Positions 2,786-13,328 of a DNA stretch of 38,968 nucleotides are shown piece by piece (positions within the stretch are counted from its first letter, which is position 1; every line of letters begins with the position of its first letter). The DNA comes from Synergistaceae bacterium (GTDB lineage: Bacteria; Synergistota; Synergistia; Synergistales; Aminobacteriaceae). The stretch covers positions 1 through 38,968 of the forward strand of contig JAISUO010000086.1 in the NCBI GenBank assembly GCA_031272035.1. Direction: 5' to 3'. The notes under the pieces are model-generated. The model did no database searches. It had not been told where the DNA came from and saw only the letters and a list, made by a program, of their open reading frames with translations. The translations under genes and the position numbers were made by a program.

Positions 2786-5700
2786 CTATTCGGGCCGGCG
2801 TTTCGTTTTTGCCCGACGGACCCTTCGAAGGGGAACCGTCCGCTCCCGGCTTCTGCCCGAGTCCAGTTCGATGAGAGCGAAGCCCTTCTCTTTTTCGAGT
2901 CTGGAGCGGAACATTTCAGCCGTGGACCGGTGGCAGGTCAGAAGGATGACCTGAAGGCCTTCGGAAAGTTTCCACAGAGCCTCCAGAGCGCCCCGTTGAC
3001 GTTCTTCGTCGAAGCGCACCAGAATGTCATCCAGCACCACCGGGATGGACTCCGATATTTCCGCCTGACGGGCCGCCATCGCCAGCCGGAGAGAGAGCCA
3101 GACCTGATCCGCCAGTCCGGAGCTCCAGACGTTCTCATTCAGTTTTATTCCGGTTTGACGCTCCAGGAGCAGATCGTTTTCCTTTTCGGAATCGGAAGCG
3201 GATTCCGGACCTTCTGAACTGAAAAGCATCCCCCATCTTCCGGCATCCGTGCCCAGAATATCGGCCAGAATGTTTTCCGCCTGACGGGTGACGGTGGGGT
3301 GACGATTCTTTTCGTGACGCTCCCGGGCTTTTTCGGTAAAATGCCGCGTCAGAATCACCGAGATCCACTCTCTGAAAACTTCTCTGCTTCGAAATCGCAG
3401 TATTTCGTTTTTCTGCCGAAGGTCGAAGAGTCTTTCGTTCATGGCCGTATCCGCCAGCCGCTTTTCCATGGCGGAACAGGAGCCGCTCAGTTCTTTCAGC
3501 ATGTCCTCGAAATTCTCGGCCTGTAAACGAAGCTGTTCCATCTCCGAAACCTGATCCGTCGCGCTCGCCAAAAATTCCCTCTCCCAGGCGGGCTCGATCG
3601 CGCCCTCCCCTCCCGTTATTCCCTGCAGGAGGCGTTTCGCTTCGGAGAGGCGGGCTTCAAGAGTCTGACGTTGGGCGCTCTGGCCGGCAAAAACCCGAAA
3701 AGCAACCTCGTCCTCCGCTCCGGCATCGTCGCAAAGTTTTCGAAGAGCTTTTTCCAGGGTATCGAGCTCCTTTTCGGCCTGAACTTTTTCTTCCCCGATA
3801 AGCTGCAGCGTTCCCGACGCCTCCTCCAGCCGCAGTTTCATCTCCAGAGCCTCTTTGAGCGAATGAAGGACGACGGGGAAAGTCTCCTCGTCCAGGTCCA
3901 GCCCCATTTTCCTCCCCAAAGCCCCTGTGCGGGCGTTGGCCTCTTCCGCGTATTTTCTGCGTTCCGCCAGGCGGTTCCGCACCTCCTGAAGGGTCTGCAG
4001 ATCTTTGACCGCCTCCTGAGCCTGGCTCAAAAAGGACAAAAAGGTTTCGGGGGTCAGTTCCTCGTTGAAACGACCGCTCCGCAGCCATGTCCGCCATTCC
4101 TCTTCCCAGGCCCTGAATTCTTTCTCCAAAAGGCTCAGATCGTTTTCGAAGGACTCCCTGCGCCCCTCCGATTCCACCAAAGCCTGAGAGAGGCGTTCGC
4201 TTTCCTCCGTCAGATCCTGATGACGGCGCAAAAGGCTTCGTTCTTCCTCCAGCGTTTCGAAAACGGCGTCCAACCCGTCCAGTGAAGAAGGAACACGAAT
4301 GCCCAGAATTTTGGAATTTTCTTCGATGGAAGCCGCCACGCTCCGCATCTCCAGGCGCAACGACTCAATGTCATCCTCAATGTGTTCAATGGTCTCGCAC
4401 CGTCGCTCATATCTTTCCTCCCACTGATTCACCTGTTTGAGGTGTTCCCTTTTTTCTCCGAAGATCAAAAGGACGGGAGCGAGAGCGGTCAGCATGAAAA
4501 AACCGGCGCCGTAAAAATTCCAGGGGCGCAGACGGGGCTCCAGATACCCCAGAACCACGGCCACCCCCGCCAGGAACACGAGAAATACCAGCAGCAGGGC
4601 GGGAACCCAGGGCTTTCGAAACACGGGAGGGTTCGCGTCGATCTGCATCTCCTCCTCAATGGCCTCCAGACGAATTTTTTCTCCCCGAATTTCCTGATAA
4701 ACGGCATCGTTATGAAGCAAATCCCCTCGAATCACAAAAAATAAATCCCTGCGTTTCTGGAAAACCTCGGAGGCCGTTTCGGGTTCCTTCATCCGGTCAA
4801 GGGCCAGGCGCAGCTCCATTTCCAGCGTCCGACGCCGCTCAGCCTCCGACTCCAGTTCTCTGAGAAGGGCATATTTTCGCTCAAGAAGAGATTTTCGATT
4901 CTCTTCATACTGTCTCGCCTTTTGCTCGGAGACAAGAGAAAGGTCCGCTTCGGCAAGATCCGTTTCGCCCCAGTGAGGGGCGAAAGTCCGGAGCGCCAGC
5001 TTCAACAGAGTTTCCTTTTCCGAAACCTCCATCTCCAGAGGGGGAATTTCTCCGGTTATCCGGAGGATTTTTTCCTTTTCTCCTTCAAGGGATTCCAGCT
5101 CTTCCCGGTACGTCAAAAGGCTCATCAGCGGGCTGTTGCTCATCTGCGAACAGCGCAGACGCTCCTGTTTTTCCTTCCGCCTCAGTTCCTTCACCCGTTC
5201 CCGCAGGGTTTTCACCCTGCTCACGAGGTCCTCCAGACGCAAAAGGCCGTCGGGTGGTATGGGCCCTGGCGGCAGAGGAATTTGAGACAGGGCGCTTTCC
5301 GTTTCGCGGATTTCCAGCCAGAGGGGCCGCGCCCGGGTGATCACGTCGAGAAACGCCCTTTTCTGCCGGGCTTCTGAGAGCTGCCGTCTCGTCTCTCCCA
5401 AAGCGACGCGCCTGGCCTTCAGTTCTTTTTCCGCTTCCAGAAGTCTGCCGTTTTCTCTCTGCCAGGCCGCGATTTCTTCTTCGTTGGCGCGAATTTCGTC
5501 GAAAATTCTGTTGAGGAGGCCGCCGGATCGGTCTCCCGGAACGCAAAGCTCTTTTTCCAGAGTCTCCATGCGGGTCAGAAACCGGGCCAGCGACAGAGCT
5601 CCCAGTCCCGCTTCCGCGGAGAAGAATCGGTCCTGAACTTCGTCGTCGTCGAAATGACGGGGAGACTGCAGGTCGTCCAGTCCCACCGCAAAAATGCGCT

Positions 5701-6013
5701 CGAAAACTCCAATTCCCACCGGAAGAAAATTTTCCCGCAGAGGCGTCATGACGGAGCCGTCGCCAATGAGGTGCTTCCGTCGGGTGCTTTCCAGTCTCAG
5801 GGTCCTTCCATCGTCCATGGACACCAGAAGATGACCGGAAACGCCGGGTAAAAATTCCGATTTTCTGTAAAACAGAATTTTGCGTATAAAATTGAGAAGA
5901 GTCGTCTTGCCGCTTTCGTTGGGACCATGCAGAACCGTCAGCCGCGGAGCGAACCTCCCCTCCACCCGGTGCAGATGTCCGACGCCCTCCATCGCGAACT
6001 CCGAGAATCTCAT
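2786..6013 (-). CDS. SbcC/YhaN-like membrane-anchored SMC-type ATPase
   Basis: This 1075-residue ATPase has the Rad50/SbcC plan, closest in layout to Bacillus YhaN. The Walker A G-P-N-E-S-G-K-T is at residues 30-37. Long coiled coils follow, and in the middle lie two hydrophobic helices at about 468-491 and 498-518, which would anchor the hairpin apex in the membrane. The second coiled coil leads to a signature-like S-S-G-L-A-D-Q stretch, Walker B V-V-L-D-D at 992-996 and an L-T-C-H H-loop, so the ATP site looks intact. The C-terminus is strongly basic. Its ATG overlaps the stop of the upstream SbcD-like gene by four bases (ATGA), implying coupled translation and a complex. A role in DNA repair or end processing is inferred from the family. 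Confidence 0.85.
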   Translation of the reverse strand: MRFSEFAMEGVGHLHRVEGRFAPRLTVLHGPNESGKTTLLNFIRKILFYRKSEFLPGVSGHLLVSMDDGRTLRLESTRRKHLIGDGSVMTPLRENFLPVGIGVFERIFAVGLDDLQSPRHFDDDEVQDRFFSAEAGLGALSLARFLTRMETLEKELCVPGDRSGGLLNRIFDEIRANEEEIAAWQRENGRLLEAEKELKARRVALGETRRQLSEARQKRAFLDVITRARPLWLEIRETESALSQIPLPPGPIPPDGLLRLEDLVSRVKTLRERVKELRRKEKQERLRCSQMSNSPLMSLLTYREELESLEGEKEKILRITGEIPPLEMEVSEKETLLKLALRTFAPHWGETDLAEADLSLVSEQKARQYEENRKSLLERKYALLRELESEAERRRTLEMELRLALDRMKEPETASEVFQKRRDLFFVIRGDLLHNDAVYQEIRGEKIRLEAIEEEMQIDANPPVFRKPWVPALLLVFLVFLAGVAVVLGYLEPRLRPWNFYGAGFFMLTALAPVLLIFGEKREHLKQVNQWEERYERRCETIEHIEDDIESLRLEMRSVAASIEENSKILGIRVPSSLDGLDAVFETLEEERSLLRRHQDLTEESERLSQALVESEGRRESFENDLSLLEKEFRAWEEEWRTWLRSGRFNEELTPETFLSFLSQAQEAVKDLQTLQEVRNRLAERRKYAEEANARTGALGRKMGLDLDEETFPVVLHSLKEALEMKLRLEEASGTLQLIGEEKVQAEKELDTLEKALRKLCDDAGAEDEVAFRVFAGQSAQRQTLEARLSEAKRLLQGITGGEGAIEPAWEREFLASATDQVSEMEQLRLQAENFEDMLKELSGSCSAMEKRLADTAMNERLFDLRQKNEILRFRSREVFREWISVILTRHFTEKARERHEKNRHPTVTRQAENILADILGTDAGRWGMLFSSEGPESASDSEKENDLLLERQTGIKLNENVWSSGLADQVWLSLRLAMAARQAEISESIPVVLDDILVRFDEERQRGALEALWKLSEGLQVILLTCHRSTAEMFRSRLEKEKGFALIELDSGRSRERTVPLRRVRRAKTKRRPE

Positions 6014-7158
6014 TCTTCCGAGATTTCCCTGCTCAGTCTTCCGCAGGCGTTTCGCAAAATTTTGTCCATATCGGCCTCCGTCATTTCCTCCAGCAGAGGG
6101 GCTGTTCCTTCATCCGCCAAAACGCGTTTGAGGAGGCCCTTTTCCTTCAGAACATCGTAAAGCGCCAGTCGGGAATCGATTTTCGACGTGAAAAACGAGA
6201 TTTCTCCGCGAAAATCGGAGAGCAGGTCGTCGCTTCCCCCTTCCGGAAGGTCTCCGTCCGCGGAAGAAATCGCCTCCTTCGAAAGCTCCGTCTCCGTCCA
6301 GTCGATCCAGTCGAGAATCACAAAATTTTTCTTCAGAGCTTCATCCTCATTGAAAAATTTTATCCATTTTTCCACGTTTTTCAGAGACGATTCGCCTTCT
6401 TTTTCTTCGGCGAGCTCTCTGTCAGGGGGAAATTTCCCCACTATTTTAAGCCGCAGCGCCAGGGGGCGTCCCAAGGCTCGAAAACGCTCCTTCAAAGAGA
6501 CCAGAAACGCCGCGGCTGCATCTTCGGTTTCAAAATCGATTTTCTCCTCCCAGGTTTCCAGACGAAGGGCGTCCAACTCCACAAACTGCCTTTCCAGAGT
6601 CCCGTCTCCCTTCAGCGTGACTCGCCAGGCTCCGTGAGGTCCGGCTTCATTCAGGCCCCGTCCCTGCAGAGGACCGGGAGAAGAGGCGAGTTCTTCCTTC
6701 AGCGCGGTGGACAGTACGGGGAAGGCCGCCGGCAATTCATCGATCGGACGGACGAAGGAAAAACAGGGCCTGTCGATCTTTGTCGCTTCTTCCGGCTTTT
6801 CCGTTTCCCCTGCGCCGAACAGAAACACCCGCTCCTGCTCCTCGACGTAACAGGAAATTTGCGCTCCGGCCAGCCGGTCAAACTGTTCCAGCAGCAAAAA
6901 ACGGGTTCTCACGCTGCACAGGGAAGGATCATGAAGAACTCCGCTCAAAACCGCGAAATCCACTTTTTCCGCTATGGCGTAATCCACGAGACGGCCCAGC
7001 GCTTCCCAGGGAATATCCCGCAGGCGAAAGAGGACGTCCTCAAGGCCGGGCCCTCCGGAGAAGGGAGCATCCGGACGAAGGTCCGCCGCGTGAAGAAAAC
7101 ATATGGCGTTTTCTGATGCCCGATCCTCGGACCGTCCGCCGGAAAGCGCAGCGTCCAC
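6010..7158 (-). CDS. Degenerate SbcD/YhaO-like phosphoesterase, probably nuclease-dead
   Basis: This is the partner of the SbcC/YhaN-like ATPase, recognised from a degraded calcineurin-type metallophosphoesterase domain. It keeps the YhaO-type start (F-L-H-A-A-D-L) and the V-D-F-x-x-L-S-G strand. Motif I D-x-H has become D-L-R, motif II G-D has become G-V, and neither G-N-H-D nor G-H-x-H can be found. The stretch between motifs III and IV is much shortened. A recognisable family tail follows (P-L-Q-G-R-G-L-N-E-A-G), then a C-terminal domain rich in charged residues. The start chosen is GTG at 7158, because GGAGG lies seven bases upstream of it. A TTG at 7182 gives a longer frame but has no such site. 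The protein has 382 residues from GTG and is likely a structural or regulatory subunit. Confidence 0.75.
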   Translation of the reverse strand: MDAALSGGRSEDRASENAICFLHAADLRPDAPFSGGPGLEDVLFRLRDIPWEALGRLVDYAIAEKVDFAVLSGVLHDPSLCSVRTRFLLLEQFDRLAGAQISCYVEEQERVFLFGAGETEKPEEATKIDRPCFSFVRPIDELPAAFPVLSTALKEELASSPGPLQGRGLNEAGPHGAWRVTLKGDGTLERQFVELDALRLETWEEKIDFETEDAAAAFLVSLKERFRALGRPLALRLKIVGKFPPDRELAEEKEGESSLKNVEKWIKFFNEDEALKKNFVILDWIDWTETELSKEAISSADGDLPEGGSDDLLSDFRGEISFFTSKIDSRLALYDVLKEKGLLKRVLADEGTAPLLEEMTEADMDKILRNACGRLSREISEE

Positions 7159-7165
7159 AAAAAAG

Positions 7166-7170
7166 CCTCC
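7166..7170 (-). promoter_or_regulatory. Ribosome-binding site that fixes a GTG start
   Basis: GGAGG on the minus strand is followed after seven bases by GTG at 7158. The sites upstream of the alternative TTG (7182) and ATG (7176) are poor, so the protein most likely starts at the GTG. Confidence 0.65.
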
Positions 7171-7211
7171 ATTCATGAACAAATATACATGCCTGCTTCA
7201 ATAGCTTCACT

Positions 7212-10877: not shown

Positions 10878-11519
10878 TCACTCCTCAGCGGAATCGCCGG
10901 CGGGTTTGTCGTTATCGTCCCCGGCCAGTTTTTTCCGGAGTTTCGCCCCTTCTTCCATGAACCTTCTCAGGCGGGACTTCACCCGGAAGTGCACGGAGTC
11001 CGTGGGGAACTTTCCGTTCTTTCCCTCCCGGCCAGCCCGCAGCCCCGTCAGAAGCTCGATTCCCTCGTCGACGGTGGACACCGACCAGACGGAGAACTTT
11101 CCCTCCTCCACAGACTGAAGCACTTCGTGGTCCAGCATGAGATGCCTCACGTTCTGTCGGGGAATCATCACGCCCTGCTCGCCGGTCAGTCCGCCGATTT
11201 TGCAATACTCATAAAATCCCTCGATCTTTTCGTTGACGCCTCCGATGGGCTGGATGTTGCCGAACTGGTCCACCGACCCCGTCACGGCGATGGACTGCTT
11301 CAGAGGCAGGCCGGAAAGGGCGGAGAGCAGACAGTAAAGCTCCGTGGAGGAGGCGCTGTCTCCCTCGATTCCGCCGTAGTTCTGCTCGAAGGTGATGCGC
11401 GCCGACAGGGTCAGCGGCATATCCTGAGCGTATTTGCGCCCCAGATAGCTCGAAAGGATCATGAGCCCCTTGTTATGAATGGGCCCGGTCATCTTGACCT
11501 CCCGCTCGATGTTGACCAC
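10878..11519 (-). CDS. C-terminal part of a Lon-family protease (S16 catalytic segment)
   Basis: This 213-residue frame continues, in the same reading frame, the Lon-like gene at 11523-13328 after a single TAG codon. It carries the serine-lysine dyad of Lon proteases: serine in G-D-S-A-S (residue 55) and lysine in N-E-K-I-E-G-F (residue 98). The spacing of 43 equals S679/K722 of E. coli Lon. The first residues (V-V-N-I-E-R-E-V) lie inside the protease fold, not at a domain border. A GTG at 11519, two codons after the TAG, could serve for re-initiation, and GGGG lies about nine bases upstream of it. It may be made separately, by stop-codon readthrough, or not at all if the gene is a pseudogene. 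Confidence 0.8.
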   Translation of the reverse strand: MVNIEREVKMTGPIHNKGLMILSSYLGRKYAQDMPLTLSARITFEQNYGGIEGDSASSTELYCLLSALSGLPLKQSIAVTGSVDQFGNIQPIGGVNEKIEGFYEYCKIGGLTGEQGVMIPRQNVRHLMLDHEVLQSVEEGKFSVWSVSTVDEGIELLTGLRAGREGKNGKFPTDSVHFRVKSRLRRFMEEGAKLRKKLAGDDNDKPAGDSAEE

Positions 11520-11522
11520 ACC

Positions 11523-11525
11523 CTA
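11523..11525 (-). other. In-frame TAG interrupting the Lon-family gene
   Basis: The minus strand reads CAG TAG GGT GTG GTC here, and the protein reads M-G-Q-stop-G-V-V-N-I-E. The frame before and after is the same, and homologous Lon-like proteins are continuous through this segment. A single base change (from CAG, GAG or AAG) would create the TAG. It may be a nonsense mutation, a sequencing error or a recoding site. Confidence 0.85.
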
Positions 11526-13328
11526 CTGCCCCATATAGACGTTGGCCGTAATACGGGAAGGATGTCCAAAGCGGTAATCCGTCAGATCGATGACGGAAAG
11601 ACCGTTGATCTGCCCCACCGCCTCGCCCTTCGTATCCACCCGAATGACGCCGGTGGCGAAGGCCCGGGTCAGCTTGTCCTGATAAAGGGAGGAACGATAT
11701 TTTTTGTGAGAGATCGCTTTTTGCACGTGAGTTCGGTCCACTCGCTTCGCGCCCTGGATGGACGCCCAGGTGTGGGACTCCATGATCAGTTCCCGGATTT
11801 TTCCGGCTTCCACGGACATGAGTTCCTGATCGTCGGCGGCGCGGCTGGTCCATTCCACCACCTCGGAGACGGCGCCCGCGTCGAAGGGCAGCATCTTTTC
11901 CTTCCGGATCAGCGCCGCGATAAAGGAGGCCATCTGCCTTTCCGTGGAGCGGTTTCGGGGCATGTCGAAATCGAAGCTGGCCTGGATTTTGAAGATTTTC
12001 CCGAACTCGGGGTCGTAGTGCTGGAGCAGTTCATACATCCAGGGCATTCCCACCATGATCACCTTCAGATTGGCGGTGATGGGCGTGGGGCGCAGGGAGG
12101 AAACGGGGATGGCGCCATACTGCTCCCCCAGATTCTCTATGGACACCTCTTCGGTGCGCATAATCCGCTTGATGGCCTCCCAGGACATGAAGTTCATCAG
12201 GACTTTTTCGGCGTCCAGAACGAGAAAACCCCCGTTGGCCCGATGAACGGCCCCCGCCACGATGCGCCGGAAGTCCGTGTAGAGATAGCCCTGACGGCTT
12301 TCGTACTCCACTTTTCCCACCAGGTTGTAGTAGGTGGGATTTGTCTCCCATATGACGGGGGCCCCTCCGTCCGGGTCGTTGCTGACGAAGAGGTTGGCCG
12401 TGTAGCGGCTGAAATCCACCTCGGCGGACTCGTCCCTTACCGATGTGACAAAAGCGCCGAAGTTCCTGATGACGTCCTCCGTCAGCCGGTCGAACCACTT
12501 CGAGAGGGTTTCGTTGTCCACATATTTTTCACGAATGTCCGACAGACAGGGCGTGATGGCCGCCCGGCAAATTTCGGCCTCCAGTTTGCCGATGGCTTCC
12601 TTCAGATCCTTTTCCATGTCCCGAATCTGCCTCAGAGACGTCAGAGTTCTCTGAGAGACCTCCTCGGAAACGGACTGCCATTCCTTCTGCTTTTCGTCGC
12701 TGAGGGCTTCGAACTCCTCCTGCTGAATTTCCCGAACGACGGTTTTGCCCTCCTCGTCCTGGGTCTCCACCAGAGGGATGTTCACAAATCCCTGAGGGGT
12801 GCGTTTCAGAGAAAACCCCTTCTGAGCCGACCAGGCCTTGAGCTCGTCCATGATCGCCCCGGCCTTTTCCTGAAATTCTCTGACGTGCTGGGCCTTGGCG
12901 TCCTCGTACTGACTTTTTTCGAAGGCCTTGCTGATGGTGACCTTGAGTTCGCTGACGAGTTCCTCCAGGGCCTTGCAGAGGTGTTTGCCCTGACCGGCGT
13001 TCAGGTGCATCGCCAGGGGCTCCCCCGGTTCATCGAAGTTGTAGACGTAGACCCAGTCGTCAGGAGCGGCGGCGTTTCTGGCCCGCTCCCTCAGCCGCTC
13101 CAGCGCGTAGGCGGTGCGCCCGCTTCCCGGATGTCCCGAGACAAAAATGTTGTACCCTCTTCCCGGCACTTCGAGCCCGAAGGAAATGGATTCTATGGCC
13201 CTTTCCTGACCGATGAGTCCCCGTGAAGAACGAATGTCCTCCGTCGTTTTGAACCCCCAGCTCTCAGGGACCTTGACTTTTCTCAATTTATCGGGTGACA
13301 GTTTCCATTTTTCTGTCCTGTTCATCAT
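11523..13328 (-). CDS. ATPase part of a Lon-family protease, cut by TAG
   Basis: This is a Lon-like protease of the AAA_32/LonB type, 601 residues before a TAG. It carries a Walker A-like G-H-P-G-S-G-R-T (65-72; arginine for lysine is common in this subfamily), Walker B L-V-L-D-A-E (369-374), a helical insertion at about 140-270, and the first 35-40 residues of the S16 protease domain. The catalytic dyad lies after the stop, in the frame at 10878-11519. Together the parts would make about 817 residues, a usual length for the family. ATG-ATG start with AAGGCGAG upstream. Whether an active protease is made depends on how the TAG is handled. Confidence 0.85.
   Translation of the reverse strand: MMNRTEKWKLSPDKLRKVKVPESWGFKTTEDIRSSRGLIGQERAIESISFGLEVPGRGYNIFVSGHPGSGRTAYALERLRERARNAAAPDDWVYVYNFDEPGEPLAMHLNAGQGKHLCKALEELVSELKVTISKAFEKSQYEDAKAQHVREFQEKAGAIMDELKAWSAQKGFSLKRTPQGFVNIPLVETQDEEGKTVVREIQQEEFEALSDEKQKEWQSVSEEVSQRTLTSLRQIRDMEKDLKEAIGKLEAEICRAAITPCLSDIREKYVDNETLSKWFDRLTEDVIRNFGAFVTSVRDESAEVDFSRYTANLFVSNDPDGGAPVIWETNPTYYNLVGKVEYESRQGYLYTDFRRIVAGAVHRANGGFLVLDAEKVLMNFMSWEAIKRIMRTEEVSIENLGEQYGAIPVSSLRPTPITANLKVIMVGMPWMYELLQHYDPEFGKIFKIQASFDFDMPRNRSTERQMASFIAALIRKEKMLPFDAGAVSEVVEWTSRAADDQELMSVEAGKIRELIMESHTWASIQGAKRVDRTHVQKAISHKKYRSSLYQDKLTRAFATGVIRVDTKGEAVGQINGLSVIDLTDYRFGHPSRITANVYMGQ

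Follow-up and report, generated by a model that had tools for sequence, protein, structure and literature searches.

A YhaO-type subunit that has lost its nuclease motifs is retained beside a Rad50-like ATPase in a clade of the Synergistaceae

Mre11-type subunits are textbook nucleases, and YhaO–YhaN is a membrane-anchored cousin of the Mre11–Rad50 repair complex. In Bacillus subtilis, yhaONM is an SOS-induced putative double-strand-break repair cluster, and YhaN, which corresponds to SbcE, has been linked to double-strand-break repair (PMC4205851, PMC3896406). Eukaryotic DNA polymerase B-subunits are inactivated Mre11/DP1-like phosphoesterases in which the catalytic residues have all been lost and which are kept as scaffold (PMC4996933). 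In the literature searched, we found no bacterial Mre11 or YhaO described as naturally nuclease-dead; the YhaO–YhaN family is already known, and in that literature neither the pseudonuclease state nor the stripping in steps presented here appears to have been described.

The DNA analyzed here (the window) is a stretch of 38,968 nucleotides from a Synergistaceae bacterium, contig JAISUO010000086.1. It includes a yhaO-like gene located directly upstream of a yhaN-like gene, with the following features:

6010..7158, minus strand: nuclease-dead YhaO-type (Mre11/SbcD-like) subunit, 382 aa from GTG 7158 or 390 aa from TTG 7182
7163..7173 (bounds approximate), minus strand: Shine-Dalgarno-like GGAGG and spacer ahead of GTG 7158, in the same context in a congener (G099)
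7075..7083, minus strand: former motif I, D-x-H, now D-L-R (residues 34-36 from TTG 7182)
6937..6942, minus strand: former motif II, G-D, now G-V (residues 81-82 from TTG 7182)
6685..6837, minus strand: shortened segment, former site of GNHD, LLHCN and GHxH, partly of low confidence in the AlphaFold2 model
6295..6633, minus strand: retained cap-domain region (residues 184-296)
6019..6225, minus strand: retained C-terminal helices (residues 320-388), whose presumed role, by analogy with Mre11, is to bind the ATPase coil

The longest open frame of yhaO begins at TTG 7182. As GGAGG is found 7 nt upstream of GTG 7158 and the congener G099 is arranged alike, the coordinates 6010–7158 given in the preliminary description of this DNA are correct. 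The yhaO stop codon and the ATPase start codon overlap by four bases (ATGA, 6010–6013), in agreement with the translational coupling proposed there. No Pfam or NCBIfam model matches the window YhaO at a trusted score, and its kinship with the YhaO family is visible only through its relatives.

Such relatives were sought in 188 genomes of the phylum Synergistota, 22 of which carry one. A profile search splits their YhaO proteins into 19 intact ones and three shortened ones: the window protein, that of G099 (50% identity to it) and that of G104, which belongs to another genus of the same family (36%). All 19 intact proteins keep DxH, GD, GNHD, LLHCN and GHxH, whereas none of the five metal motifs (DxH, GD, GNHD, H, GHxH) is complete in the window YhaO. 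DxH has been replaced by DLR, DLR and DFR in the window, G099 and G104, respectively, and GD by GV, GR and GE. The first aspartate of DxH is the sole ligand still in place in the three short proteins. GNHD, the histidine of LLHCN and GHxH are missing because most of the segment from GNHD to GHxH is deleted: its coverage is 24–37% and its identity 13–23%, versus 44–58% in intact outgroups. The Pfam Metallophos model matches all 18 intact relatives scanned and none of the three short proteins. The N-terminal half, the cap and the C-terminal region do align with the intact relatives, and a profile built with these matches the window YhaO with an E-value of 2e-50. Judged by its sequence, the window YhaO is a descendant of the Mre11/SbcD superfamily and not an active member of it; it is almost certainly unable to cut DNA in the way that Mre11 does. 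The earlier claims that the subunit is nuclease-dead and that the middle of its domain is shortened are thus borne out by the alignment across Synergistota, and no alternative metal site is apparent in the protein.

Could the loss be an artefact of sequencing, assembly or gene calling, or damage private to this copy? The genomes are drafts, and the window has a private in-frame TAG in another gene, a lonB-like one. Against this, the same pattern of loss recurs in G099 and G104, each a separate genome, the frames are open, the start is conserved and the adjacency to the ATPase gene is kept. The pattern common to three genomes refutes this explanation, to which we assign a practically negligible probability.

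An AlphaFold2 model of the window YhaO, built on the alignment of relatives (pLDDT 78, pTM 0.70), shows half of the phosphoesterase sheet, the cap and the C-terminal helices. When it was compared with the PDB by Foldseek, the best matches listed were all Mre11/SbcD chains, with TM-scores of 0.2–0.4, low as expected because half a domain is missing. The predicted structure, then, still matches the Mre11 fold.

To judge how rare such losses are, GTDB contigs were scanned with an alignment of the ATPase, which yielded 80 loci from many phyla. Among 79 distinct full-length YhaO proteins (GTDB loci and the Synergistota set), 73 have all eight ligands, and there is no case of single-ligand loss. Besides the window, G099 and G104, the failures are three proteins of normal length in which several ligands have been replaced:

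L186:4763-6004: YhaO of Acidimicrobiales
L207:4676-6004: YhaO of Planctomycetota
L202:4368-5981: YhaO of Planctomycetota

The ATPases beside these three keep Walker A, signature and Walker B. Taxonomy and the differing substitutions, used here in place of a tree, make the three nuclease losses look independent.

The partner encoded downstream in the window has the following features:

2786..6013, minus strand: YhaN/SbcE-type Rad50-like ATPase, 1075 aa, ATGA overlap with yhaO
5900..5926, minus strand: Walker A, GPNESGKTT
4454..4609, minus strand: two-segment hydrophobic, putative membrane hairpin in the middle of the coil (residues 469-520)
3104..3127, minus strand: ABC signature, WSSGLADQ
3026..3043, minus strand: Walker B, PVVLDD

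Walker A, signature and Walker B (PVVLDDILVRFD) are all intact in the N- and C-lobes, as had been claimed. The apex of the coil lacks a CxxC zinc hook and has the hydrophobic hairpin instead. Its segments begin at residues 470 and 500 (KD 3.0 and 2.0), and one or two hydrophobic segments occur at this mid-coil place in all YhaN homologues that were scanned. Its hydrophobicity is what suggests insertion of the hairpin into the membrane. A structural model of the ATPase (pLDDT 78, pTM 0.42) gives the order N-lobe, coil, hydrophobic helices (469-491 and from 498), coil and C-lobe.

Loss is not confined to YhaO in the relatives of the window genome (G000). In the ATPase of G104 (genus g19), Walker A, signature and Walker B are still present, but approximately 37 residues with the likely Q-loop region have been lost. 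Three further YhaN descendants are more severely reduced:

L054:3427-5898 (G033): ATP-dead YhaN, coil and hydrophobic hairpin conserved
L055:3188-5647 (G034): ATP-dead YhaN, coil and hydrophobic hairpin conserved
L056:2172-4031 (G106, g20): headless YhaN of 619 residues, coil-hairpin-coil, with its own start site

The YhaN proteins of G033 and G034 (genus g4), 820 residues long, have lost Walker A, the Q-loop, the signature and Walker B and still possess the coil and the hairpin. Neither genome yielded a yhaO; that of G034 is 99% complete. A branch (92/93) of the coil-region tree separates G000, G099, G104, G033, G034 and G106 from the remaining sequences. In an rpoB tree, the genera g1, g4, g19 and g20 form one clade (100/100) with the sampled locus-less genera g5, g8, g10, g11, g13 and g14; rpoB is missing from the G000 assembly, and g1 is therefore represented by G098 and G099. 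A copy was not detectable in G098 or in G035, both incomplete genomes. Every copy of the locus retained in the rpoB clade is damaged, whereas the sister of this clade consists of genera with intact pairs. The simplest history starts with one nuclease loss in the ancestor, after which different branches went on to lose the ATPase, the head or the entire locus. Two independent inactivations, one in g1 and one in g19, would be less parsimonious, given that these genera have both the histidine-to-arginine change and the deletion in common. The parts surviving longest in the clade are the mid-coil hairpin and the coil.

As this loss is stepwise and within one clade, the pattern is in part one of reductive evolution and not of new function alone. 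The main rival explanation takes it further: nuclease, ATPase, head and locus would be lost in turn, and the window pair would be a barely functional relic undergoing slow erosion. The fate of the relatives just described favours this reading, while the selection tests that follow oppose it, and on balance we regard it as rather unlikely.

Between G000 and G099, dN/dS is 0.39/1.72 for the dead YhaO and 0.33/1.47 for the ATPase, about 0.23 in both cases, a sign of purifying selection, these ratios being rough since synonymous sites are near saturation. For the ATP-dead YhaN of G033 and G034, which share 75.6% identity, the ratio is about 0.16, which likewise indicates purifying selection, and the hairpin is the best conserved part of that protein (86% identity). 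In neutral simulations with 0.3–1.0 changes per site, the yhaO frame gains 8–15 stops and was left open in 0 of 2000 runs; the actual frame is long and has none. All of this speaks against plain decay. The assertion in the preliminary description that the pattern is "not random decay" is supported by the low dN/dS and the simulations; the stepwise loss of the system in the clade was not anticipated there.

Constraint on YhaO has nevertheless changed. YhaO is the better conserved partner in each of the six intact pairs compared. For the dead clade, a small sample of three draft-genome sequences, the identities of YhaO and ATPase are 0.50 versus 0.58, 0.37 versus 0.39 and 0.43 versus 0.40, that is, YhaO evolves at a rate roughly equal to or above that of its ATPase, the reverse of the intact pairs. 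As the dead YhaO is no longer consistently the more conserved protein and yet has a low dN/dS, constraint has relaxed but not vanished. By region, identity is slightly lower in the cap and clearly lower in the N-terminal half of the core; the C-terminal half of the core is mostly deleted. The C-terminal part of YhaO is almost as well conserved as in active relatives, with an identity of 0.22–0.26 between dead proteins and intact relatives, versus 0.26–0.28 for intact outgroups. By analogy with Mre11, the portion retained is the one expected to hold the ATPase.

A broken second yhaON in G032 was considered as a pseudogene comparator and rejected, being 94–100% identical to the intact copy. This frameshifted copy (L066, G032 C1:2417000-2427830) lies close to the other end of an assembly that consists of a single contig and is most likely an unpolished circular overlap.

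The neighbours of the pair in the window encode a class II-like ribonucleotide reductase, an HhH-GPD glycosylase/endonuclease, a LonB-like protease, LarA and a beta-lactamase-family protein. The LonB-like gene (10878-13328, minus strand) has its in-frame TAG at 11523-11525, between the ATPase and protease domains. The matched gene is free of internal stops in all nine related genomes searched, and the likely origin of the TAG is either an error in sequencing or a nonsense mutation private to this genome. A second, intact sbcCD had been suggested as something to look for, and the window genome does have a separate complete SbcCD, with all motifs present in SbcD (C88:34922) and an SbcC of 1250 aa carrying GPTGAGKTT, LSGGE and LFLDEGF. 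Intact SbcD is also encoded in G099, G104 and G034.

It had also been proposed that the complex recruits another nuclease, and a new metal site in the dead subunit would be a variant of the same idea. Apart from its general appeal, this proposal can point to the HhH-GPD (endonuclease III-like) gene, which has the same orientation and lies at a distance of about 3 kb. However, in the stretches examined none of the window neighbours lies beside the G099 or G104 copies, so that the three genomes have no conserved neighbour gene, and the half of the core bearing the second set of ligands is mostly deleted. Recruitment is hence unsupported, and we consider either version very improbable.

The best-supported mechanism, and in our judgement a probable one, is that the dead YhaO still works with the ATPase in a structural or regulatory role. 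YhaO would have turned into a pseudonuclease in the ancestor of a Synergistaceae subclade, keeping the cap as well as the C-terminal region, the latter being expected to grip the base of the ATPase coiled coil. In the most likely working model, YhaO–YhaN would act as an ATP-driven clamp on DNA or DNA ends, anchored to the membrane through the putative hairpin, which occupies the apical position of the zinc hook of Rad50. The dead YhaO would be only an assembly or regulatory clip in it, and cutting could fall to the separate intact SbcCD. We infer that the two proteins form a complex, that the hairpin enters the membrane, that the pair binds DNA and that YhaO acts as a clip; a putative tethering of DNA by the pair is plausible. 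Since related genera have an ATPase-dead YhaN, a headless one or none, an ATP-driven clamp is not essential in the clade. A structural partnership and decay may both be true, a secondary role being kept once the main one was lost.

More tentatively, YhaN-type Rad50 proteins might have a selected function of hairpin and coiled coil that needs neither nuclease nor ATPase. If so, this function, for instance as an envelope or nucleoid-membrane scaffold, would have been exposed by the serial stripping of enzymes in this clade, which offers a natural dissection of the parts of a Rad50-like complex that are worth keeping. Whether the membrane-hairpin class (YhaN/SbcE) has a structural role apart from DNA cutting becomes a testable question, and the apparently independent losses in Planctomycetota and Acidimicrobiales suggest that its reach extends beyond one family.

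Compared with B. subtilis YhaO–YhaN, the window pair has the same yhaO-yhaN order, an SMC/Rad50-like ATPase partner and the YhaO fold; it differs in that its YhaO is devoid of metal motifs and truncated in the core. With SbcCD and Mre11–Rad50 it shares the small-subunit fold, the ABC ATPase head and the long coiled coil. Unlike them, it has no nuclease centre, carries a hydrophobic hairpin rather than a zinc hook, and coexists with a separate intact SbcCD in the genome. Eukaryotic DNA polymerase B-subunits have a polymerase as partner, whereas the window YhaO has a Rad50-like ATPase, and there is no close homology between the two; they nonetheless provide a precedent for an Mre11-like fold turned scaffold, as proposed here for the window YhaO (PMC4996933).
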